From the IMG/VR virus record IMGVR_UViG_3300032116_000407, positions 1 through 44,311 of that record: 44,311 bases of DNA; one strand, written 5' to 3'. Below are positions 2,821 to 44,311 of this stretch, one piece after another. Both the position numbers and the translations under genes were made by a program. Position 1 is the stretch's first letter. Each line of letters starts with the position of its first letter. The notes below the pieces were generated by a model. It saw only the letters and a program-made list of their open reading frames with translations, was not told the DNA's origin and did not search any database. The DNA comes from a virus.

Positions 2821-3096
2821 ATGGAAGACATCAACAAGCCTCGCGTCCCGACCTCGGACGACATCCGTGACGAACTCGCTACGGTGCTGCACAAGGTCAT
2901 CACCTCGGGCGTCCCAGTGAAGGACGAAGAAACTGGCGAGGTGCACCTCGATCCGCCGCCGGCCGCCTACCTGGCGGTCGCGCGTGCGTACCTGAAGGAT
3001 CACCCTCCGGCCACTCTCCCCGCCGCAGGATCACCCACGGGCCTCCTCAAGAAGCACATGGATGGCCTCCCCTTCGGAGCCAAAGGGAAGCACTAA
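2821..3096 (+). CDS. terS: Terminase small subunit (T7 gp18-like)
   Basis: A 91-aa, soluble protein just upstream of the large terminase and 2 bp after the preceding stop. Size and position match T7 gp18, the DNA-recognition subunit of the packaging motor. An N-terminal helical part with an acidic hairpin (KDEETGEVHLDPP, about residues 38-50) is followed by a helix ending with YLKDHP and a basic C-terminus (LPFGAKGKH) that could contact DNA or the large subunit. Assignment rests mainly on synteny and size. Confidence 0.75.
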   Translation: MEDINKPRVPTSDDIRDELATVLHKVITSGVPVKDEETGEVHLDPPPAAYLAVARAYLKDHPPATLPAAGSPTGLLKKHMDGLPFGAKGKH

Positions 3097-10535: not shown

Positions 10536-10902
10536 TCTTTCCATGCACGGCTCCTCCCTGGCATGGTCAACCGCCGAAGTGGCGCTGCTCGAAGTGTCGA
10601 AGTCCCTGCTCACGTCGATTGTCCGGCCCACCGAGGGGACCTTCTATGCGACGGACGACGGGACGCCTATGGTCTCCCTTCACCCGGCCGATGGGGGCGA
10701 CGCCTGGTACACCTTCTGGAAGACCGAGGCGGGCATCTATTGCCGCAACGAGGCCCTCACGGTGACACTCAAGGCCACCCTCAGGGACCACATCACGGCC
10801 ATCATTACGGCCACCGATGGGAGCCGCGCTGCGCCCCGCCCTTGGGACCAACACGCGGCCGTCGAGACGTGCTCCTTCGTCGTCCCCAAGGTGGCCTCAT
10901 GA
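10525..10902 (+). CDS. Unknown protein between regulator and integrase
   Basis: A 125-aa protein starting inside the end of the regulator gene, with an AAGGAG ribosome site at good distance. It is alpha/beta, with a helix (STAEVALLEVSKSLL), several strands and a Trp/Tyr/Phe cluster (DAWYTFWKTEAGIYC). It is coupled to the integrase by ATGA. The position suggests a lysogeny accessory role such as excisionase or immunity modulator, but no winged-helix signature is visible and I cannot assign a family. Confidence 0.5.
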   Translation: MSNDLSMHGSSLAWSTAEVALLEVSKSLLTSIVRPTEGTFYATDDGTPMVSLHPADGGDAWYTFWKTEAGIYCRNEALTVTLKATLRDHITAIITATDGSRAAPRPWDQHAAVETCSFVVPKVAS

Positions 10903-12092
10903 GCCTCTACAAGCGCCCCAATTCGCCCTTCTGGTACTACCGCTTCACGGTGGGCGGAAAGGAGTACCGCGGGAGCACCTCCACGGCCAACAAGGCGGAC
11001 GCCCTGGCCGTGGAGGTGGGCGAACGCCGGAAGGTCAAGGAGAACGTGACGGCGGACCCTGAGGCCACCCTGATGGACCTCGGGGAGGTGTGGTATCTCC
11101 GGGAAGGATCGAAGTCACGGGACGCCCGCAACAATCGGTCCCGCCTGGACAAGCTCTTCGGTTATCCCGACGAGACCGATACGCAGCACCGTTACGGGCT
11201 TTCGCTCGACCTCAAAGTCCATGAGCTTTGTGACAAGCACCTCGCTTCACTGGTGGACGCGCGGGAGCGGGAGGGGAACGCCCCTGGCACGATCAACCGG
11301 GAGTTGTCCCTGATCCAGACGCTCCTCCGGGAGGGTCGTCGGCCGGGACGGAAGGTCCGCCTTCCGGTGGGCCTTCATGTTGGGGACCACAAGCTCCCTG
11401 AGGCGGGCGCACGGCTCCGGTGGTACACGGTGGAGGAAGAGAAGGCCCTCCTGGCTCAACTGGACCCGGATCGGCCCGTCAAGGGCCTCCCTGAGCCGTC
11501 CAAGCGATCCGCCCATCTGAAGCTCGCCATGATCGATCAAAGGGACCTTACGGTCGTAATGCTCGATACCGGCGCACGGTACTCCGAAGCGGCCGGCCTT
11601 CCGTGGGACGCGGTGGACTGCGTCAACGGGACGGTCAACCTGTACCGCTCGAAGGTCGGCAATGAGGGGACCCTGCGGATGACGGAGCGCCTCAAGAAGG
11701 TGCTTTGTGGTCGGCTCGAAGCGCGGCGCCCCGGCGAGCTTTACGTCTTCCCTGCGGGGGTCACTGGGCCGGACGGGGCGGATGTCTCTGGGCCGCGTGG
11801 GTATGCCGTGAAGGGCATCGCAGCGGCCATCGAACGGGCCAAGCTCAACGCGCCGCACCTGGTTGAGCGGTACGGTTTCGCCACGCCGGCCCACACGTTC
11901 AGGCACACGTTCGCTACGCGCCTATTGCAGGCCGGTGTTCCGATCTACACGGTGTCCAAGCTCTTGGGGCACGCCTCGGTGAAGACGACGGAGAAGCACT
12001 ACGGCCACCTGGTCGTGGACAAGTCGAGCGCCGAGGCGATGAAGCACCTCGATGCTTTGCATGCCGGTGTTGTACAGCAACAACACGTTTAG
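10899..12092 (+). CDS. int: Tyrosine integrase
   Basis: A 397-aa tyrosine recombinase expected to catalyse site-specific integration and excision at attP/attB. The N-terminus has an arm-binding-like beta region (YKRPNSPFWYYRFTVGGKEY), followed by a SAM-like core-binding domain (about residues 55-170). The catalytic domain shows Arg227 in DTGARYSEAAGLPW, the beta-hairpin Lys near YRSKVGNEG, HTFRH at 332-336, LGHAS near 356 and the nucleophile Tyr368 in EKHYGH. All required residues are present, so it should be active. ATG overlaps the preceding stop (ATGA). Integrases are known in some T7-like phages of cyanobacteria and marine bacteria but are absent from T7 itself. Confidence 0.95.
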   Translation: MSLYKRPNSPFWYYRFTVGGKEYRGSTSTANKADALAVEVGERRKVKENVTADPEATLMDLGEVWYLREGSKSRDARNNRSRLDKLFGYPDETDTQHRYGLSLDLKVHELCDKHLASLVDAREREGNAPGTINRELSLIQTLLREGRRPGRKVRLPVGLHVGDHKLPEAGARLRWYTVEEEKALLAQLDPDRPVKGLPEPSKRSAHLKLAMIDQRDLTVVMLDTGARYSEAAGLPWDAVDCVNGTVNLYRSKVGNEGTLRMTERLKKVLCGRLEARRPGELYVFPAGVTGPDGADVSGPRGYAVKGIAAAIERAKLNAPHLVERYGFATPAHTFRHTFATRLLQAGVPIYTVSKLLGHASVKTTEKHYGHLVVDKSSAEAMKHLDALHAGVVQQQHV

Positions 12093-14575: not shown

Positions 14576-15493
14576 ATGAAAGACTTACAGTCGGCACAGT
14601 TCTCGGCACACACCGGGTACACCCCGGAGGAAATCGAGGAGATTGAGTGGGAGCGTGGGGCCGTTACGCGCGGCATCGCCCGCTACCGATCCTCGTTGTA
14701 CTCCGTGAACGACGACGGGACCACCGAGATGCGGGACCTTGGCGACCTCGAACCGGGGGTCCAAATGCTCCGCGAACTGGTGTCGAACGTCGAGCCCGCC
14801 GTCATCAACGCCGTAGCCGAGGCCAAGCAGAAGCTCTCCGACCACAAGTCGGGGCGGTGGGAAAACTGGTGGTTCCCGCTTCTGAGTCTTGAGCCCAAGG
14901 CGTGGGTCATCGTGGCCGGCAAGGCGGTCCTGGCCCAGTCGGGGCAGAACGGCCAGTTCTCGCGCAGCGTCCGCTCCATCGCCTTGGAGATCGGCCGCAA
15001 CGGCAAGCTGGAGGTGGAGTTCCGGGAGTGGAAGCGCTCCCAGAACGAGAAGGCGAGGACCACCGGGGCGCCGAACTGGTGGAAGCTCATGCAGTCGCGC
15101 TCTCCGGAGATCGATGAGCGGGCCTTCAAGAAGTTCAAGGCGAAGTCGAAGGAACTCGACAAAGTGGAGTGGTCGCGGGAGATGCGTCTCGCCATCGGGA
15201 CGAAGCTCCTGACCATCCTGGTCGAGCACGGAGGGGGGTGGTTCCAGTTCGCCCTCAAACGCAAGCCGGACGGGCGCGGGTTCTTCAAGGAGAACGTGAT
15301 TGAACTCACCCCGCTGGCGCAAAGCTGGATCAAGGGACGGCACCGCGGCAACGAATTGTCCCGCCCGTGGCTCGTCCCGATGTTGACCGAACCGAAACCC
15401 TGGACCAGAGAGGTCCGACCAGACAAGGAGACGGAGCATGAGCCGAGTGAATATCAAGACGAGCGCGGGGACGATGTTGGCGGAGGTCCCTGA
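14576..15493 (+). CDS. T7-like RNA polymerase, N-terminal (promoter) subunit
   Basis: A 305-aa protein colinear with residues 1 to about 279 of T7 RNA polymerase (RPOL_N domain). The helix WERGAVTRGIARYRS corresponds to T7 LEHESYEMGEARFRK; EPKAWVIVAGKAVL to PEAVAYITIKTTL; KLLTILVEHGGGWFQF to EMLIESTGMVSL; and VIELTP then LTEPKPWT at residues 270-277 match T7 IELAP and VPPKPWT. T7 W278 falls at W276 here. The gene then ends with a charged, probably flexible 28-residue tail (REVRPDKETEHEP...) instead of continuing into the thumb. This domain binds promoter DNA and the early transcript in T7. ATG 14576 has GGAG about 9 bases upstream. The catalytic half is encoded separately at 16384-18081. Confidence 0.9.
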   Translation: MKDLQSAQFSAHTGYTPEEIEEIEWERGAVTRGIARYRSSLYSVNDDGTTEMRDLGDLEPGVQMLRELVSNVEPAVINAVAEAKQKLSDHKSGRWENWWFPLLSLEPKAWVIVAGKAVLAQSGQNGQFSRSVRSIALEIGRNGKLEVEFREWKRSQNEKARTTGAPNWWKLMQSRSPEIDERAFKKFKAKSKELDKVEWSREMRLAIGTKLLTILVEHGGGWFQFALKRKPDGRGFFKENVIELTPLAQSWIKGRHRGNELSRPWLVPMLTEPKPWTREVRPDKETEHEPSEYQDERGDDVGGGP

Positions 15494-16383: not shown

Positions 16384-18081
16384 ATGTCACACGTCACGTA
16401 CCGCGGCGGCTATCTGTCGCTCCCCCTGAAGCTCGTCAAGACCTCCATGCACGGCCACACGGCCGACCTCGACGACCCCATATCGGACACCGTATTGGCC
16501 GCCGTCAACGCCGTTCAGGCGACCCGATGGCGCATCAATCCGTTCGTCTCTCGGGTCATGTGGGAGGCATACGAGCGGGGAATGCAGATGCCGGGGTTCC
16601 CGTCCTTCGACGACGAGCCCATGCCGCCGGACGTGGCGGCCGACGTGTGGTCTGCGATGACCCCGGAGGAGCGGTCGGACGTGAAGATGGCGCGGGCGGA
16701 GGTGCACGGCCGCAACGCCAAGGCGCAGGGCAAGCGTGAGTCCCTGAAGCGCAAGCTCGACATGGCCCTCGAACTCCAGAGCCGGCCGGCCATCTGGTTC
16801 CCACATGCCGTGGACTTCCGGGGCCGCATCTACCCCACGCCGCAGGACCTCAACCCGCAGGGGGACGACGTAGCCAAGGGCCTGCTCCAGTTTGCAGACG
16901 GCAAGGGTCCCGGCGAGACCGGCCTCTACTGGCTCAAGGTCGCAGTGGCGAACGCCGCCGGCCAGGACAAGCTCACGCTCGACGAGCGCGTGGCGTGGAC
17001 GGACGCCAATGTCGAAGAGGTACGGGCCACTGCCCGCTCCCCGCTGGCCTTCGGCCGCAAGTGGCTCGAACTGGACGACCGCGGCGAGCCTGTCTACGAC
17101 GCCCCGTGGGTCTTCCTCGCCCTCGCCAAGGACCTCGACGACGTGCTCACCTTCGGGGTGGACCATCCGATCCACACTCCGATCAACATCGACGCAACCT
17201 GCTCGGGCATCCAGCACTTGTCCGCCCTCGGGCTCGACCCTGCGGGCGCCCGCGCGACCAACCTCATGAACACCGGAAAGCGGGAAGACCTGTACTCCGA
17301 GGTGGCCGCGCACGTCAAGCAGGCCGTTGCGGACGACGCAGCGCGGGGCGTAGCGGAGGCCCATGCGTGGGTCGGGAATGTCTCGCGGTCCACCGTGAAG
17401 CGGGCCGTCATGACCACGCCCTACGGCGTCACTGAGCGGGGCATTCGGGACCAACTGGTGGCGGACGGACACACGCGTCACCTGGACGGACGGCCGTACC
17501 AGAACGCCGAGTACCTGAAGAACAAGATCGTGGACGCAATGGCCGCCACTGTGGTGTCCGCAAGGCAGATCATGGGGTACTTCCAAGGCGTCGCCCGTGC
17601 GCTCGCCAAGGAGGGGCTTCCGCTGATCTGGCACAACCCGGCCGGCATGCTGATCCAGCAAGCCTACTGGAACATGGCGGAGACGCGGGTCCGGACGCTT
17701 CAGGGGGCACTCTCGTTCTCCTTCTGGGACTCCAACAAGGACCTTGGGCTGGACGTGGTGAAGCAAGCGCAGAGCGCCGCGCCCAACGTCATCCACTCGT
17801 TCGACGCCGGCCATCTGTGCCTGGCCGTGAACGCTGCGTACAAGGAAGGCATCCGCCACTTCTCCCTGGTGCACGACTCATACGGGTGTCACGCGGCGGA
17901 CATTCCCCTGCTCCAGCACTGCATCAAGAACACCTTCATCTCGATCTACTCGACGGATCGACTGGAGCGCTTCGAGAAGGACGTGCGCCGGTACGCACCG
18001 GACGTGGAGCTTCCGCCGCGGCCGGAGAAGGGTGGCTTTGACATCACCGAAGTCTGGGACAGCCCTTACTTTTTCTCGTGA
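16384..18081 (+). CDS. T7-like RNA polymerase, C-terminal catalytic subunit
   Basis: A 565-aa protein that begins at the T7 position of about residue 280: GGYLSLPLKLVK near residue 9 corresponds to T7 GGYWANGRRPLALVR. All catalytic residues are in place: DFRGRIY at 144-150 (T7 421-427), Asp270 in NIDATCSGIQHL (T7 Asp537), Lys339 and Tyr347 in STVKRAVMTTPYG (T7 Lys631 and Tyr639), and His497-Asp498 in LVHDSYG (T7 His811-Asp812). The specificity-loop region lies around IWHNPAGMLIQQAY. It ends YFFS where T7 ends FAFA. ATG 16384 has AGGAG upstream and no in-frame extension reaches the N-domain gene. It lacks a promoter-binding domain, so it should need the 14576-15493 product. Confidence 0.95.
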   Translation: MSHVTYRGGYLSLPLKLVKTSMHGHTADLDDPISDTVLAAVNAVQATRWRINPFVSRVMWEAYERGMQMPGFPSFDDEPMPPDVAADVWSAMTPEERSDVKMARAEVHGRNAKAQGKRESLKRKLDMALELQSRPAIWFPHAVDFRGRIYPTPQDLNPQGDDVAKGLLQFADGKGPGETGLYWLKVAVANAAGQDKLTLDERVAWTDANVEEVRATARSPLAFGRKWLELDDRGEPVYDAPWVFLALAKDLDDVLTFGVDHPIHTPINIDATCSGIQHLSALGLDPAGARATNLMNTGKREDLYSEVAAHVKQAVADDAARGVAEAHAWVGNVSRSTVKRAVMTTPYGVTERGIRDQLVADGHTRHLDGRPYQNAEYLKNKIVDAMAATVVSARQIMGYFQGVARALAKEGLPLIWHNPAGMLIQQAYWNMAETRVRTLQGALSFSFWDSNKDLGLDVVKQAQSAAPNVIHSFDAGHLCLAVNAAYKEGIRHFSLVHDSYGCHAADIPLLQHCIKNTFISIYSTDRLERFEKDVRRYAPDVELPPRPEKGGFDITEVWDSPYFFS

Positions 18082-18100
18082 AATACAGTGACAACGTAAC
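18081..18100 (+). promoter_or_regulatory. CAGTGACAACGTAAC element after the polymerase gene
   Basis: A full copy of the repeated element, overlapping the last base of the polymerase stop codon and 6 bases before a promoter-like element. The two elements therefore occur together here. Confidence 0.5.
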
Positions 18101-18105
18101 TAGCG

Positions 18106-18130
18106 GGGAGAAAACATTCCCCTAATACAA
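18106..18130 (+). promoter_or_regulatory. Candidate phage RNA polymerase promoter 2
   Basis: GAAAACATTCCCCTAATA is a variant of the element at 9772 and 26886 (shared GRAAAAYRTTCCSCTA then ACAA). It heads the replication gene block. A 5-bp hairpin CCGCC/GGCGG with loop ACTTC follows within the leader. This copy has no ATG, which favours the promoter reading over a shared coding start. Confidence 0.45.
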
Positions 18131-18175
18131 GAGACCGCCACTTCGGCGGAATCCACCAACTATCACAGGACCATC

Positions 18176-18775
18176 ATGGCCGAGAAGACCACCGGGAAGA
18201 AGCAGAAATTCCCAACTGAACTCTCACCTGTCGGGATCGCGGGGTTCTCACACCTCGACAAGCCGGACACCGAGGGCAAGTACGCTGACAACAAGTTCAA
18301 GATCACCCTCTACCTCGACAAGGCGAAGCCCGAGAACATCGAGTGGGCGAAGAAGGTGAACGCCGCCAACGAGGAGCAGGGCGGGGAGAACATCGTTGCG
18401 AAGGACGGCGACGAGGAGAACAAACGCCGCATCAAGAAGAAGAAGGAGCCGCGGGAGAACTACGTCGGCAAGCTCGTCGTCACGTTCAAGTCGAGGTACG
18501 CCCCCGACCTGGTCTCGACCAAGCGCGACCCGGCGACTGGCAAGGCGGCCAAGCTGCCCGAGGGCGAGGCGCCGCGCGGTGGCGACACGGTCAAGGTGGC
18601 ATACGCCTCGATCCCCTACGAGGCCGGCGAGAACACGGGCGTGAGCCTACAACTCCGGGCCGTCCAGCTTGTCGAGAAGCGTCCGCGTGGCAGCTACGGC
18701 GATGCGTTCGACGCTGACGACGATGGCGAAGACGCCGCCGAAGGCGAAGACGGGGCGGGCTCTGGCGACTTCTAG
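18176..18775 (+). CDS. Single-stranded DNA-binding protein (T7 gp2.5-like, DUF2815)
   Basis: A 199-aa protein expected to coat single-stranded DNA and coordinate polymerase and helicase. The N-terminal OB-fold region includes GIAGFSHLDKPD and FKITLYLDK, with a basic middle (KRRIKKKKEPREN). The C-terminus is an acidic tail of about 25 residues ending in phenylalanine (GSGDF), as in T7 gp2.5, where the acidic tail and terminal Phe contact partner proteins. It follows the polymerase gene and a promoter-like element, and precedes a RusA-like gene, as the first gene of the DNA metabolism block. Confidence 0.9.
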   Translation: MAEKTTGKKQKFPTELSPVGIAGFSHLDKPDTEGKYADNKFKITLYLDKAKPENIEWAKKVNAANEEQGGENIVAKDGDEENKRRIKKKKEPRENYVGKLVVTFKSRYAPDLVSTKRDPATGKAAKLPEGEAPRGGDTVKVAYASIPYEAGENTGVSLQLRAVQLVEKRPRGSYGDAFDADDDGEDAAEGEDGAGSGDF

Positions 18776-21915: not shown

Positions 21916-22167
21916 ATGAAGCTGTTGAAGAAGAACGGGAAGTTCCGAAAAGGGGTGACTCAGCGTCTCACCTCCGACTCGATGGCAGAGGTTTCGCTGG
22001 CTCTCGAAGGAGACGAGGTTCGCCTATCCATCGGGTATGCGTCAGCGCGTCAAGTCGAGGAAGGCTTGGAGAGTTCGCAGGTGTTCACCGCGATTGACCT
22101 CCGCGAGTTTGCGCGTGAACTGCTTCGCGCTGCCGAAGCGCTAGACGACATCCGTTCGAAAGGTTGA
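21916..22167 (+). CDS. Unknown protein upstream of DNA polymerase
   Basis: An 83-aa alpha/beta protein 1 base after the lipoprotein gene. It has a basic start (KLLKKNGKFRKG), strands around EVSLALEGDEVRLSIGY and an acidic C-terminal helix (LREFARELLRAAEALDD). It ends 4 bases before the inferred CTG start of DNA polymerase, with the polymerase ribosome site inside its last codons. No family is recognised. Confidence 0.5.
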   Translation: MKLLKKNGKFRKGVTQRLTSDSMAEVSLALEGDEVRLSIGYASARQVEEGLESSQVFTAIDLREFARELLRAAEALDDIRSKG

Positions 22168-22171
22168 TCCG

Positions 22172-23977
22172 CTGCAAGCACTGGTCTATGACGTGGAGAC
22201 TGACGGTCTCCTCGATACGGTGTCGGTCATCTGGTGCTTGCTGATCGGAGACCCCGACACCGGGGAAGTCAAACGCTATTCCGACCACGGACTCGATGTC
22301 CGCAAGCCGGACGGCACTCTCGCTGAAGGTGTCCAGCGGTTACTCTCGGCCGACACCGTCGCGCACAACGGCATCGGCTACGACCGACAAGCCATCAAGA
22401 AGATCACCGGAGTGGAACTCTCCCTGGACCGCTCGTGGGACACGATGGTCATCGGCCGTCTGTTCAACCCGGAGCGGGGCGAACACAGTCTGGAGTCCTA
22501 CGGCCGCGAGTTCAAGATGCCGAAAGGCGAATACTCCGACTGGTCCCAGTGGACCCTTCCGATGGAGGACTACTGCGAGCAGGACGTTCGCATCACCATG
22601 CGCCTCTGGCGGCAACAGGCCGCGGAGATTCCGGCGTGGGGCCGTAGCGTCCGCCTTGAGCACAACGTTGCGGAGATCATCCGGCTCCAGATGGAGAACG
22701 GCTTCACGCTCGACGTGAAGAAGGCCCAGATGTTGGCCGCCGAGTTCCTCGAAGAGAAGACCAAGCTGGAGCGTGAGCTTCAAGTTCTGCTCCCGCCGCG
22801 CTACGTCGCCACGGAAGTCTTCATCCCGAAGAAGGACAACGCCAAGTCCGGCTACCTGAAGGGCACGCCGCTCACAAAGGTGGAGCTTCAGGAGTTCAAC
22901 CCTGGCTCGCCCAAGCAGCGCGGCATGCGTCTGAAGCAGAAGTACAAGTGGAGGCCCCGCAAGTTCACGGACGGCGGCGACCCTGCCACGGACGAAGACG
23001 TGCTCAAGGAACTGCCGTACCCTGAGGCCGCGCTGCTCGCCAAGTGGATGCGAGCCGACAAGCAGTGGAAGCAGGTAGCGTCCAAGCCCAAGGCCGATGG
23101 AAGCGGGGGAGGGTGGCTACACCACGTCCGCGCAGACGGCCGGGTCCACGGCTACGTCAACAGCAACGGCGCCGTCACGGGCCGCATGACGCACAGCAAG
23201 CCCAACACCGCGAACATCGACAAGAAGGACGTTCGGATGCGCGAGGTGTGGATACCCGCCGCCGGAAAGAAGCTCGTCGGGTGTGACGCTGAAGGTCTGG
23301 AGCTACGCATGCTCGCCCACTACCTGACTCCCTACGACGGAGGAGCTTACACACGCGCTCTGCTCGAAGGGAAGAAGGAAGACGAGACCGATGTCCACTC
23401 CATGACACGCAAGATCGTCGGGCTCCACAAGCGGGACAACGCCAAGCGTGTCATCTACGCCATGATCTACGGCGCAGGCGACCCAAAGATCGGCGCGATC
23501 ATCGCTGAAGACGCCATCGAAGGTGGCACCGCTCCGCCGAAGAACAAGGCCGCCGCTGGCAAGGCCGCGCGTGAGGCGCTCGAAGCTGGCATCGTCGGTC
23601 TGGCGCAGATCAAGACGCAGATCAGCAAGCGGGTCAAACGGCCTGGCTACCTGGTCGGGCTCGACGGCCGGCGCCTCCACATCCGCTCGGAACACTCCGC
23701 ACTCAACACGCTGCTTCAAGGCGCAGGCGCCATTGTAATGAAGGAGGCCCTCGTCTTGCACTTTCGCCGTGCCGGGGAACTGTGGAAGTGGGGGATCGAT
23801 TTTGGTTACTGCGCCAACGTCCATGACGAGGTCCAGTCAGAGGTCGATCCGGCCATCGCAGGGCCATATGGAATGCTATTCGCTGACGCAATCCGTGACG
23901 CCGGCATCTCGCTCGGCGTGCGCTGTCCACTGGCCGGGTCCTACGACATCGGCAACAACTGGGGTGAAACCCACTGA
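22172..23977 (+). CDS. DNA polymerase (family A, T7 gp5-like), probable CTG start
   Basis: A 601-aa replicative polymerase with 3'-5' exonuclease. The polymerase motifs are CDAEGLELRML (A), KRVIYAMIYGAG (B) and NVHDEV (C). The exonuclease motif I is VYDVETDG (Asp-x-Glu, as in T7 SDIEAN). The first ATG/GTG/TTG in frame is GTG 22193, which would delete the catalytic Asp. CTG 22172 has AAGG 8 bases upstream and keeps the motif, so it is preferred. An in-frame TAG at 22142 limits further extension. It is shorter than T7 gp5 (704 aa), mainly in the exonuclease and thumb-insert parts, so a thioredoxin-binding loop may be reduced. Confidence 0.93.
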   Translation: MQALVYDVETDGLLDTVSVIWCLLIGDPDTGEVKRYSDHGLDVRKPDGTLAEGVQRLLSADTVAHNGIGYDRQAIKKITGVELSLDRSWDTMVIGRLFNPERGEHSLESYGREFKMPKGEYSDWSQWTLPMEDYCEQDVRITMRLWRQQAAEIPAWGRSVRLEHNVAEIIRLQMENGFTLDVKKAQMLAAEFLEEKTKLERELQVLLPPRYVATEVFIPKKDNAKSGYLKGTPLTKVELQEFNPGSPKQRGMRLKQKYKWRPRKFTDGGDPATDEDVLKELPYPEAALLAKWMRADKQWKQVASKPKADGSGGGWLHHVRADGRVHGYVNSNGAVTGRMTHSKPNTANIDKKDVRMREVWIPAAGKKLVGCDAEGLELRMLAHYLTPYDGGAYTRALLEGKKEDETDVHSMTRKIVGLHKRDNAKRVIYAMIYGAGDPKIGAIIAEDAIEGGTAPPKNKAAAGKAAREALEAGIVGLAQIKTQISKRVKRPGYLVGLDGRRLHIRSEHSALNTLLQGAGAIVMKEALVLHFRRAGELWKWGIDFGYCANVHDEVQSEVDPAIAGPYGMLFADAIRDAGISLGVRCPLAGSYDIGNNWGETH

Positions 23978-23984
23978 GGAAACC

Positions 23985-24314
23985 ATGAAGATCAATCTCT
24001 TCCGTCCACGCTCCGTGGACAGCATCATCGACGTGTTCGCGCGGATGGAGGCCGACCTCGAAAAGGCCCGCGCCTTCCACGACTCGCAGACCGAAGTGGT
24101 GCGCGAAAAGGCGGACGACACGCTTCGCCTCTACGACGCCTTCGTCAATCGCTTCTACGACTTTCTGGTCAAGGTCCAGGAGTGGGCCGACCGCCGAGTC
24201 TCGGCCCGCGTGGAAGCGCTGGACCAGATGTCCAACGAGCACTTCCAAGAGGCCATCCGTGCGAACGACACGAAGGGCCGCATTCAGGCCCTCCTCGGAA
24301 AGCGCGATGACTGA
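23985..24314 (+). CDS. Helical protein, unknown
   Basis: A 109-aa, almost entirely helical protein with GAGGA upstream. Charged helices around EADLEKARAFHDSQTEVVRE and FYDFLVKVQEWADRRVSARV suggest a coiled coil. The next gene starts inside its last codons. No family is recognised; its place between polymerase and exonuclease suggests an accessory replication role, without proof. Confidence 0.5.
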   Translation: MKINLFRPRSVDSIIDVFARMEADLEKARAFHDSQTEVVREKADDTLRLYDAFVNRFYDFLVKVQEWADRRVSARVEALDQMSNEHFQEAIRANDTKGRIQALLGKRDD

Positions 24315-24432
24315 CAAGGAGTACATCGCGGCGATCAAGCGTGAAGATCGCAAGGCGTTCATCGGCCTCACGTTGACGTGGGTCGGGCTCGGCCTTCTCG
24401 TCATCTCAGCGAGCGCCTTCTTTGCCCGCTAA
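24307..24432 (+). CDS. Single-span membrane protein
   Basis: A 41-aa protein overlapping the previous gene by 8 bases. Charged N-terminus (DKEYIAAIKREDRKAF) and one hydrophobic span (LTLTWVGLGLLVISASAFF). Its end overlaps the exonuclease start by 11 bases. Similar single-span micro-proteins recur along this genome. Confidence 0.45.
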   Translation: MTDKEYIAAIKREDRKAFIGLTLTWVGLGLLVISASAFFAR

Positions 24433-25228
24433 GACCCGACGCGCTCTGATAGACGGCGATGAGTTGGCCTTCAAGGCCGCCGTCATCAAGCCCGAAGCGG
24501 AGATCGACTGGGGCGGCGGACTGACCTCCGAGAAGGAAGACAGCGCGGAGGCCCACACGCGGGTCGCCGTGTCAATGCTCAGGACGTGGACCGAGAAAGT
24601 GGCGGCCGACGAGATAACCCTGTGCTTCTCACCGGACGACCGCTCTAAGTTGTTCCGCAGGGACATCTTCGTGGAGTACAAGAACGGGCGCACCGACAAG
24701 CCGCCGTTCTTCTGGGACGTGGTGCGCTTCCTGAAGGCCCGCTATGAGTCGGTCCAGATCGACGGCTTCGAGGCTGACGATGTCATGGGCGTGCACTCGG
24801 CCGAGACGGAAGACGAGAAGCGCATCGTCGTGTCCTCCGACAAGGACCTCCGAACCGTCCCCTGCACTCTGTACGACCCGTACCACGACAAGATTACGAC
24901 CATCCGCCGCGTGGAAGCTGACCGCTTCTGGATGTACCAGACCCTAGCGGGCGACCCTACGGACGGCTTCTCGGGCTGCCCTGGTGTCGGCAAAGTGGGC
25001 GCCGAAGCGGTGCTCAAGGGCCACACCCTCATTGGCCCCATGTGGGCCGCGGTCGTCCAGAAGTACCTCGACAAGAAGTCCACCAAGGCGGAAGCCTTCA
25101 AGCAGGCGACGCTCGCCCGCATCCTCCGCCCATCCGACTGGGACCCCACAACGCGCACCATTGAGTGGCGCCTTGGGGACCTGACTCGCCGTATCCAACT
25201 CAAGGGAGAGACCCCTGACGCAGCTTGA
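24422..25228 (+). CDS. 5'-3' exonuclease (T7 gp6-like)
   Basis: A 268-aa FEN/PIN-type exonuclease, start TTG. Metal-binding acidic motifs appear in order: LIDGDELAF near residue 9, GFEADDVMG near 118, VVSSDKDLRT near 137 and GDPTDGFSGCPGVGKVGA near 178 (a helix-hairpin-helix DNA-binding site). T7 gp6 (300 aa) removes RNA primers and degrades host DNA to nucleotides for reuse. It follows DNA polymerase by two small genes. Its end overlaps the inferred CTG start of the next gene. Confidence 0.9.
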   Translation: MPAKTRRALIDGDELAFKAAVIKPEAEIDWGGGLTSEKEDSAEAHTRVAVSMLRTWTEKVAADEITLCFSPDDRSKLFRRDIFVEYKNGRTDKPPFFWDVVRFLKARYESVQIDGFEADDVMGVHSAETEDEKRIVVSSDKDLRTVPCTLYDPYHDKITTIRRVEADRFWMYQTLAGDPTDGFSGCPGVGKVGAEAVLKGHTLIGPMWAAVVQKYLDKKSTKAEAFKQATLARILRPSDWDPTTRTIEWRLGDLTRRIQLKGETPDAA

Positions 25229-25841
25229 ACTGTTCGAGGCGCCAGACGCCGCGGACTACCGCTCGACCATCGTTACCGCCCTCGGGCGGGAGATCAACTT
25301 CCTCGACCCGGACCCCCGCGAGATCACCATGAGTGACATCGCTACGGGCCTCTCTCGGGAGAATCGCTTCGCCGGCCAAACGACCCGCGACCGCGAGGGA
25401 TACAAGGTCGCCATGCACTCCCTCCTCGTGGCCGCCCTCGTGCGCCAAGAGTTCGGTCGCCCCGATCTGGTGGGCCAGGCGCTCCTGCATGACGCCACTG
25501 AAGCCTACATGAAGGACATCCCTTCGCCCCTCAAACGGCTCATCCCGAAGTACAAGGAGATCGAGTCCGTTCTGCTCGGGACGATCCTCCGCAAGTTCGG
25601 CCAGGCGGACGACCTCAACCCCGTGGTGCACGAGGCCGACTGGATGGCGTACTGCATCGAGCGCGAGGTTCTCATGCCCTACCACTCGACGGAGGTGGAC
25701 ACCCGTTCCCGCCGTGAGACGACGCTCCCGGAGAACCGGGCGTACTGGTTCGGGATGGTCTCCACGGCCGGCGAAGTGAAGGCCCGCGAGTCGTACTTGA
25801 CGGCGGTCTCTGGGTGGAACGCAGGGTGGCTGTCGAAATGA
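25215..25841 (+). CDS. HD-domain phosphohydrolase (YfbR/DatZ-like), probable CTG start
   Basis: A 208-aa HD-superfamily enzyme. The N-terminal segment INFLDPDPREITMSDIATGL and RFAGQT are typical of phage HD nucleotidases; metal ligands are His in AMHSLLVA, His-Asp in LLHDATEAYMKDIP and Asp in HEADWMAY. The first ATG (25329) would delete the conserved LDPDP segment, so CTG 25215 with GGGAG six bases upstream is preferred. Related enzymes dephosphorylate dNMPs (YfbR) or dATP (DatZ of Z-genome phages). With the next gene it forms a nucleotide-pool pair. No PurZ-like gene is present. Confidence 0.8.
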   Translation: MTQLELFEAPDAADYRSTIVTALGREINFLDPDPREITMSDIATGLSRENRFAGQTTRDREGYKVAMHSLLVAALVRQEFGRPDLVGQALLHDATEAYMKDIPSPLKRLIPKYKEIESVLLGTILRKFGQADDLNPVVHEADWMAYCIEREVLMPYHSTEVDTRSRRETTLPENRAYWFGMVSTAGEVKARESYLTAVSGWNAGWLSK

Positions 25842-42783: not shown

Positions 42784-44311
42784 ATGGCACTCTCCCGCAC
42801 GACCCTCACCGGCGACGGCGTTACGAACCAGTACGCCGTCCCCTTTCCGTACATCAAGAAGTCGCACGTCAACGTCGAAGTTGACGGTGTCACGGCCCCG
42901 TTCACTTGGGTGAACCCGGCCCTCATTCAGATCACGAGCACGCCGGCCGCGCTCAGTACGATCCTCATCTACCGCAACAGTTCCAAGACCGCCCGCCTGG
43001 TCGACTACACGGCGGGGCCGCTCGACGAAGAGACGCTCGACGCGGATTCGCAGCAAGCGTTCTACCTCGCGCAGGAGTCCATCGATCGTGCGGAGCTTGC
43101 CATGGGGACCACCTTTGGCGGCGTTGCGTGGGACGCATTGGCAAAGCGGATCACCAACTCAGCGACGCCCGCGCTCGCGAACGACGTAGCCACAAAGGAC
43201 TACGTCGACACGCGCAGCGGGACCGGAAGCGGTAGCTGGACCCAGGACGGCACCGGCGCGGCTACCATCTCCGTGGTCGCCGATCTAAAGCGCACTGTTC
43301 GCGTGAGTCAGTTCACCGGAGTCGACCCGACAGGTGTGGCCGACTCCACGACAGGCATTCAGAACGCCCTCAACTCCCTGCCGTTCGGCGGGACCGTCAT
43401 GCTCGGGCGCGGAACATTCAAAGTGACCGGACTCACGATCCCTGCGGGGGTTGTGCTGGAGGGCGAGACGCCGTACCAGTCCGTCCTGATCACTTCGTCC
43501 ACGAACGCGACCGTGGCGTACATGAACACGTCGGCGGCCCTTCGCCGCATCAAGATCGACTCGTCTGTCGCACGGACCGCCAGCTTCTTCGTCGACGTCC
43601 AGGGCAACGGGGTGGTGCTCGACGAGCTTGAGTTGTCGAACTACTTCATCGGCATCTCGATCGGGACGCTCGGGTCTCCAGTCATCGTAGGGACGCGAAT
43701 CATCAACCCGGTTCTTCGCAACCCGTCAATCCTGGCCGGAACAGGCGGAATCCAGGCGCTGAATTTCAGCAACACACTCATCGTCGACGGGATCGTGACC
43801 GGGCCAAACACGGGCGATCAGCCTGGGTTCGGCATTCGCTTCCAGAACGGCGACACAGCGTTCATCTCAGGGACCAACGTAACGAAGCACGGGAAAGGCC
43901 TCTGGGTTGATACCCCTGCGCCATACAACTGCTACGCCCTGACGATCGACGGAAGCCTGTTCGACTCGGCGGGGACGATCAACGGCGGGACCACGGTGGC
44001 GTCGGGAAGCATCGCGCCAGCGGGCGGCGTGTACAACACGCGCATCTCGAATACGTGGTTCGGGCTGTCTACTGCACAGCAAGGGCTCTACATCGGGCGC
44101 ACTGGCGCGGGAACGGTTGACGGCATTGTGCTGGACGGTTGTGAGTTCACGGACAACGGCGACAGCGGGCTTGTCGTGGATGGGCCGGGAGTCAAGAACT
44201 GGTCCGTAATTGGCGGCCACGCCGGGGGCAACACTGCGTCCGGCATCAGGGCGGCGGCCGGAACAACGGATTGGTCGATTGTCGGCTTCCGTGCCGGCAA
44301 CATCGCGGGCC
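42784..44311 (+). CDS. Tailspike, N-terminal part (T7-fibre anchor plus beta-helix)
   Basis: ATG 42784; the reading frame runs off the window end and continues at base 228 of the left end, for about 633 aa in all. Residues 1-130 match the T7 gp17 N-terminal virion-binding domain: LTGDGVTNQYAVPFPYIKK, VEVDGVTAPFTW, LIYRNSSKT and DADSQQAFYLAQESIDRAE. From about residue 180 a pectate-lyase-type beta-helix begins with FTGVDPTGVADSTTGIQNAL, then GRGTFKVTGLTIPAGVVLEG. This combination is typical of capsule- or O-antigen-depolymerising tailspikes of podoviruses. Enzyme activity is an inference. Base 44185 (C) differs from the matching base 101 (A). Confidence 0.92.
   Translation, partial: MALSRTTLTGDGVTNQYAVPFPYIKKSHVNVEVDGVTAPFTWVNPALIQITSTPAALSTILIYRNSSKTARLVDYTAGPLDEETLDADSQQAFYLAQESIDRAELAMGTTFGGVAWDALAKRITNSATPALANDVATKDYVDTRSGTGSGSWTQDGTGAATISVVADLKRTVRVSQFTGVDPTGVADSTTGIQNALNSLPFGGTVMLGRGTFKVTGLTIPAGVVLEGETPYQSVLITSSTNATVAYMNTSAALRRIKIDSSVARTASFFVDVQGNGVVLDELELSNYFIGISIGTLGSPVIVGTRIINPVLRNPSILAGTGGIQALNFSNTLIVDGIVTGPNTGDQPGFGIRFQNGDTAFISGTNVTKHGKGLWVDTPAPYNCYALTIDGSLFDSAGTINGGTTVASGSIAPAGGVYNTRISNTWFGLSTAQQGLYIGRTGAGTVDGIVLDGCEFTDNGDSGLVVDGPGVKNWSVIGGHAGGNTASGIRAAAGTTDWSIVGFRAGNIAG
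44085..44311. repeat. Terminal overlap of the assembly (right copy)
   Basis: Second copy of bases 1-227, with a single mismatch at 44185. It marks the point where the circular or permuted assembly was opened, inside the beta-helix coding region of the tailspike. Confidence 0.9.

Follow-up and report, generated by a model that had tools for sequence, protein, structure and literature searches.

The window analysed here, a DNA stretch of 44,311 bases, is IMG/VR virus record IMGVR_UViG_3300032116_000407, and two of its genes, for a family A DNA polymerase (pol) and an HD phosphohydrolase (HD phosphatase), appear to be intact and translated from the near-cognate codons CTG 22172 and CTG 25215, respectively, a reading to which we assign a probability of about 0.8. 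The beginning of both genes lacks a usual start codon (ATG, GTG or TTG), coding signal and conserved N-terminal residues lie upstream of the first such codon, and the proposed starts stand at positions resembling those of the starts in relatives. We infer in addition that CTG is the codon used, that translation is coupled to that of the upstream gene and that low expression is the purpose of the arrangement.

Start regions of the polymerase and phosphatase genes

The pol frame begins at 22145, directly behind a stop codon at 22142–22144, and reads ACG ACA TCC GTT CGA AAG GTT GAT CCG CTG CAA GCA CTG GTC TAT GAC GTG. None of the 15 sense codons between this stop and the exonuclease Asp (22190) is ATG, GTG or TTG, and the first usual start, GTG 22193, directly follows the Asp of YDVETDG; as claimed in an original prediction made from the sequence alone, a protein begun there (594 aa) would thus lose this residue. 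When the other frames nearby were scanned for ATG, GTG or TTG codons that a simple indel could rescue, none was usable, the only candidates being TTG 22164, which touches AAGG, and ATG 22188, which lies inside the motif. Asp16 and Glu18 of the frame are invariant among 11 aligned sequences, and this DxE (exonuclease motif I) aligns with DIE of T7 gp5, which we take to be its catalytic D5 and E7; the polymerase domain was assigned to PF00476 and phrog_17.

Relatives of pol were surveyed at 303 loci, of which 297 could be aligned at the motif, giving 208 distinct start contexts. A usual start was present 2–12 codons before the Asp in 203 contexts (ATG in 184, TTG in 11 and GTG in 8); one of the five others is cut by the end of its contig. 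The observed ATG starts are located 4–9 codons before the Asp and CTG 22172 at six, aligned exactly with the ATG of pol from L004, L008, L011 and LUZ100 (4 of the 10 aligned relatives). Proteins of relatives that begin downstream had been named in the original prediction as evidence against it, and no pol relative starts after the Asp. In a codon-usage scan, with a model trained on the long genes of the window, the maximal coding segment of pol begins exactly at 22172.

The HD frame spans 25185–25841, and its first usual start, ATG 25329, is residue 49 and lies after LDPDP, as had been stated; the protein is 208 aa long from the proposed CTG versus 170 aa from this ATG. A scan of the other frames near the start for indel-rescuable ATG, GTG or TTG codons found only TTG 25225, which is not usable. 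Among 88 relative loci, 83 passed a motif check and yielded 66 contexts, in which a usual start was sought 20–45 codons before an anchor Asp; one was found in 65, at 22–37 codons, and the lone exception (L090) proved to be mis-anchored, its annotated start being a normal ATG. ATG 25329 is only two codons before the anchor, and none of the HD relatives begins there or further downstream. CTG 25215 is residue 11 of the frame and relatives begin at approximately residues 14–29, so the window protein would be a few residues longer. The coding segment begins exactly at 25215; starting at ATG 25329 instead would forgo 17–19 log units of coding signal, the largest such loss in the window. In an alignment of eight proteins, H78, H102, D103 and D152 are invariant, and T31 is the only one of 25 invariant columns located upstream of M49. 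The Pfam YfbR-like match to the protein is below cut-off.

Shine-Dalgarno duplex energies were compared with those at 3,000 random window positions. The AAGGGAG preceding CTG 25215, with its GGGAG six bases upstream as originally described, reaches −8.4 kcal/mol, within the best 6% of random positions. For pol, AAGG is indeed present (22160–22163, ending 8 nt before the CTG), but as a Shine-Dalgarno sequence it is weak (−3.8 kcal/mol). An 83-aa open reading frame (ORF) upstream of pol, for which profile searches returned no family match, stops at TGA 22165–22167, 4 nt before CTG 22172, and the 5'-3' exonuclease gene upstream of the HD gene shares its last 14 nt with it. Because each CTG thus lies where translation of a preceding gene ends, re-initiation by finishing ribosomes is probable. 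Both codons would be decoded by initiator tRNA as fMet, with ribosomes leaving the upstream gene re-initiating there, helped at the HD gene by the strong Shine-Dalgarno sequence, and the effect would be a lower, coupled expression of polymerase and phosphatase. Raised IF3 has been described to reduce both re-initiation without a Shine-Dalgarno sequence and initiation at non-canonical codons (PMC2268962).

Alternative explanations for the two start regions

Several observations weigh against the CTG reading. The evidence for it is entirely computational. For pol, the Shine-Dalgarno energy is unexceptional, cut-offs of −3.5 and −4 kcal/mol being reached by 49 and 42% of random positions, respectively; CTG is a favoured leucine codon of the window (log score +0.9), so the start of a coding segment is pulled towards CTG; and a second in-frame CTG is present at 22181. 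No close relative or second copy of the window virus turned up in pattern scans of IMG/VR in which any start codon was allowed, nor did a single-protein scan with the HD protein reveal a close relative. The two cases, originally presented as independent, can fairly be regarded as such, but both are in one genome.

Another non-cognate codon may be used instead, namely CTG 22181 or ACG 22145 in pol and CTG 25230 or ATC 25269 in the HD gene. Such codons do exist in both frames and the ribosome-binding site of pol does not single out 22172, but we regard this as unlikely: CTG 22181 is three codons before the Asp, closer than the ATG starts of relatives, and 17 nt from AAGG; ACG 22145 precedes AAGG; CTG 25230 is too distant from AAGGGAG, and it and ATC 25269 have only weak Shine-Dalgarno matches (−2.7 and −3.2). 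Genuine short proteins from GTG 22193 and ATG 25329, with loss of polymerase proofreading, are extremely unlikely, even though the shortened phosphatase would retain its H/HD/D metal motif. Against them stand the invariance of Asp16 and Glu18, the coding signal or conserved residues that continue upstream of these codons in both genes, and the lack of a good ribosome-binding site at either codon (−2.7 and −3.2).

A base-call error that converted usual starts to CTG might be suspected in a metagenomic record without reads, the 227-bp end copies of which differ by one mismatch. It is nevertheless very improbable, as two errors would be required, each exactly at a start codon in a frame that is otherwise open, and comparable cases are present in the contig of an isolate genome (Methylovorus, NZ_LXUF01000001.1) as well as in several further contigs. 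It is equally hard to believe in a +1 ribosomal frameshift that would join pol and the phosphatase to the products of the genes upstream. The upstream genes do end inside or beside the downstream frame, which is +1 in both cases; the gene ends GGT TGA T and GCT TGA A, however, would seem to give no good P-site re-pairing, the 203 pol contexts that have a usual start need no fusion, and 4 of the 10 aligned relatives have ATG exactly at the place of CTG 22172. Translation from the two CTG codons is the reading we retain; the original prediction was right on the sequence and very probably on its interpretation as well.

The virus and near-cognate starts in its relatives

Profile searches identified genes for a T7-type RNA polymerase, SSB, RusA, a primase-helicase, a family A DNA polymerase, a FEN exonuclease, an HD phosphatase, T7-type structural proteins and a tyrosine integrase (Table 1). 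A T7-type RNA polymerase, pol, a primase-helicase and a tyrosine integrase, the features sought for a temperate Autographiviridae-like phage, are all present, and the tyrosine integrase in a T7-like genome suggests that the virus is temperate; it is probably a temperate T7-like, Autographiviridae-like phage. The ends of the record carry a 227-bp direct repeat (1–227 and 44085–44311), and the record is therefore probably complete; the repeat falls within a tail-fibre gene. The window pol is at most 46% identical to any aligned relative, the nearest being that of Mycobacterium phage jiawei, and a distant DNA search in phages gave only within-gene pieces among the ten matches listed.

The RNA polymerase is split over two genes (14576–15493 and 16384–18081), which correspond to positions 7–247 and 249–816 of phrog_414, respectively, and are separated by approximately 890 nt with small ORFs. 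A two-part RNA polymerase is also present in N4-like phages. An Rfam search of the window gave no match, hence no known intron class.

Table 1. Features of the window discussed in the text
Feature	Position	Strand	Evidence and remarks
Tyrosine integrase	10563..12092	+	phrog_1 1.8e-47, PF00589 6.2e-21; start uncertain (10563 or 10899)
83-aa ORF upstream of pol	21916..22167	+	Strong Shine-Dalgarno sequence, −11.3 kcal/mol
Weak Shine-Dalgarno-like AAAGG	22159..22163	+	8 nt before CTG 22172
Proposed CTG start of pol	22172..22174	+	Six codons before exonuclease Asp; alignment, coding scan, starts of relatives
Family A (T7-type) DNA polymerase, putative extent	22172..23977	+	phrog_17 5e-117, PF00476; 601 aa from proposed CTG
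5'-3' exonuclease (FEN type)	24422..25228	+	PF02739, phrog_107, N-termini of relatives; TTG start without good Shine-Dalgarno sequence
Shine-Dalgarno AAGGGAG	25202..25208	+	6 nt before CTG 25215
Proposed CTG start of HD gene	25215..25217	+	Maximal coding segment begins here; coding signal precedes ATG 25329
HD phosphohydrolase (deoxyribonucleoside 5' monophosphate phosphatase family), putative extent	25215..25841	+	phrog_318 1.9e-48; PDB 2gz4 from residue 33

Four further pol lineages lack a plausible usual start and have CTG, ATC, ATA or ATT near the aligned place. In loci L006, L007 and L013, the sequence TAG CCA ATC GCT TTA ATA TTT GAC leaves only ATC or ATA. In L010, TAAAGGA precedes a CTG located six codons before the Asp, and the sole in-frame usual start is a GTG 17 codons before the Asp, inside a 14-bp terminator-like hairpin. 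L248 has ATA six codons before the Asp, behind TGGAGA, and L238 has ATT four codons before it, behind AAAGGGGG; the sole usual start in these two is a GTG located two codons upstream of the Asp, closer to it than all ATG starts observed, and both were counted among the 203 contexts that have a usual start. L245, with an ATG 18–19 codons upstream and GGAGG, and L115, with a TTG three codons before the Asp (and CTG at ten), were left out of the set. In a pol tree of 49 rows, the near-cognate lineages and the window are scattered, requiring five changes, at least two of which are forced by well-supported branches, and L005, the sister of L010, starts with ATG, which suggests that near-cognate pol starts arose several times.

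L010 is part of an integrated provirus (G001) of Methylovorus sp. MM2 (NZ_LXUF01000001.1) with an integrase at its right end. Like the window virus, it is an integrase-bearing T7-type phage with the pol CTG in the same alignment column; it differs in having four candidate near-cognate genes, and its pol is 35–39% identical to the window pol. The four are pol (CTG), an exonuclease (AAGGAGAAAGC-ATA), an internal virion protein (AAGGAGAACAGC-ATC) and the large terminase (AAAGGATTAGAA-ATA). ATG 12917 is the first usual start of the exonuclease, and its use would forfeit 31–34 log units of coding signal. The annotated starts of relatives were compared by hand. Those in Limnohabitans phage YIMV22061 and Rhizobium phage Pasto lie within two residues of the exonuclease start, and those in two Salmonella phages within two residues of the virion-protein start; of three terminase relatives, one is in agreement and the others begin 9 and 16 residues earlier. 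An ATT start of the tail-fibre gene was rejected, ATG 30965 having AAAGGA.

An automatic census with a threshold of at least 3 for lost coding signal flagged 5 of 137 genes in five genomes chosen for their pol and 4 of 882 in 25 control genomes; raising the threshold to 5 left three flagged genes in each set. With sham codon sets, 1 and 3 of the 137 and 2 and 3 of the 882 genes were flagged, and since sham codons perform similarly, the census detects genes without a usual start and not which codon serves. The difference had p values of 0.054 without the SSB and tail-fibre calls and 0.003 with both, and in these 30 genomes the census does not establish clustering of near-cognate genes by genome; G002, G003 and G004 gave no match under its rule. 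The SSB-like gene of the window (18104–18775), flagged with ATT 18116, was set aside because ATG 18176 has AGGA and because TAATAC in the leader resembles a promoter. The leader (18080–18176) contains GGGGAGAAAACATTCCCC as well as TAATAC, possibly a phage promoter.

An integrase was found in all three near-cognate-pol lineages (the window, G001, and G004 with G005) versus 13 of 71 other records (Fisher 0.009), all of these records being of at least 15 kb, picked from long contigs by the author, related and not independent; with the short records G002, G003 and G006 included, the counts are 3 of 5 versus 13 of 72 (p 0.058). This points weakly to a generalisation to integrase-bearing T7-like phages. 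We would offer only as a doubtful conjecture that such phages have repeatedly swapped the starts of replication and packaging genes for CTG, ATA, ATC or ATT, often behind strong Shine-Dalgarno sequences, as a translational brake. Such a brake would act through re-initiation or IF3 levels and would prevent leaky lytic transcripts from harming the lysogen.

Further candidate genes were noted in other contigs. A RusA-like gene in L284 (7755–8129) has no usual start at its beginning and carries TTAAGGAGGAAGCA-ATC. A radical-SAM gene in L401 (2257–2760, minus strand), which matches the anaerobic ribonucleotide reductase small-subunit profile, has AAAGGAAGTTTT-ATT and its first ATG near the end of the gene; it belongs to the same phage (G004) as an ATC pol. 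In L403 (588–1175), from the phage (G002) with an ATA pol, the first usual start of an endonuclease gene is within the domain, and ATT 801 is near the start of the family, with a poor Shine-Dalgarno sequence. The two ATT cases were found by eye under a looser rule and are leads only. A 647-codon gene in L420 (2705–4648; G013 22705–24648), without a PHROGs match, loses 19 log units before its first usual start and has ATC directly after TGA.

Comparison with known systems

Gene finders restricted to ATG, GTG and TTG cut the catalytic Asp off the window pol and 38 residues off the phosphatase, and pol could consequently be miscalled proofreading-deficient. The window case is useful for annotation, whereas the wider interest lies in the recurring near-cognate starts in pol genes of unrelated T7-like phages. 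If near-cognate starts do recur in replication genes of the temperate T7-like group, the strength of the start codon would add a testable level to lysis-lysogeny control, and the number of rare starts in phages would be underestimated. In Escherichia coli, infC and pcnB have AUU starts and, as proposed for the window genes, a near-cognate start limits their expression; they differ in being host genes under IF3 discrimination.

None of the excerpts returned by an open-licence literature search described a near-cognate start in a T7-like polymerase. LUZ100 has been described as a T7-like phage with temperate features (PMC10134795). CTG starts do appear in phage annotation: one was predicted for ORF10 of phiB124-14 (PMC3338817), and two were given for Pantoea phage Nifs112 and one for Nafs113 (PMC9915841). 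These resemble the window genes in their start codon but were assigned by annotators, and the passages concerned name no core replication enzyme. Another phage annotation permitted CTG yet, as described there, assigned none (PMC9503643), and 2 of 61,358 is the figure reported for AUG-to-CUG switches (PMC5622118). The rarity of CTG starts asserted in the original prediction agrees with their annotation in 0.024% of nearly 85,000 bacterial genes (PMC11983097).

CTG starts as such are already known, and the window adds a further instance. The closest parallel described in the sources above is the rep gene of IncFIB plasmids, the CTG start of which was supported by N-terminal analysis and a CTG-to-CTC mutation and is argued by its authors to set a low expression level (PMC11983097). 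IncFIB rep encodes a plasmid initiator and has a good ribosome-binding site, whereas the window pol is a phage polymerase known from sequence with a weak site, a good one being present only at the HD gene. Like the two window genes in the reading retained above, rep is a replication gene with a CTG start; it is generally annotated at a GTG 14 codons downstream (PMC11983097).

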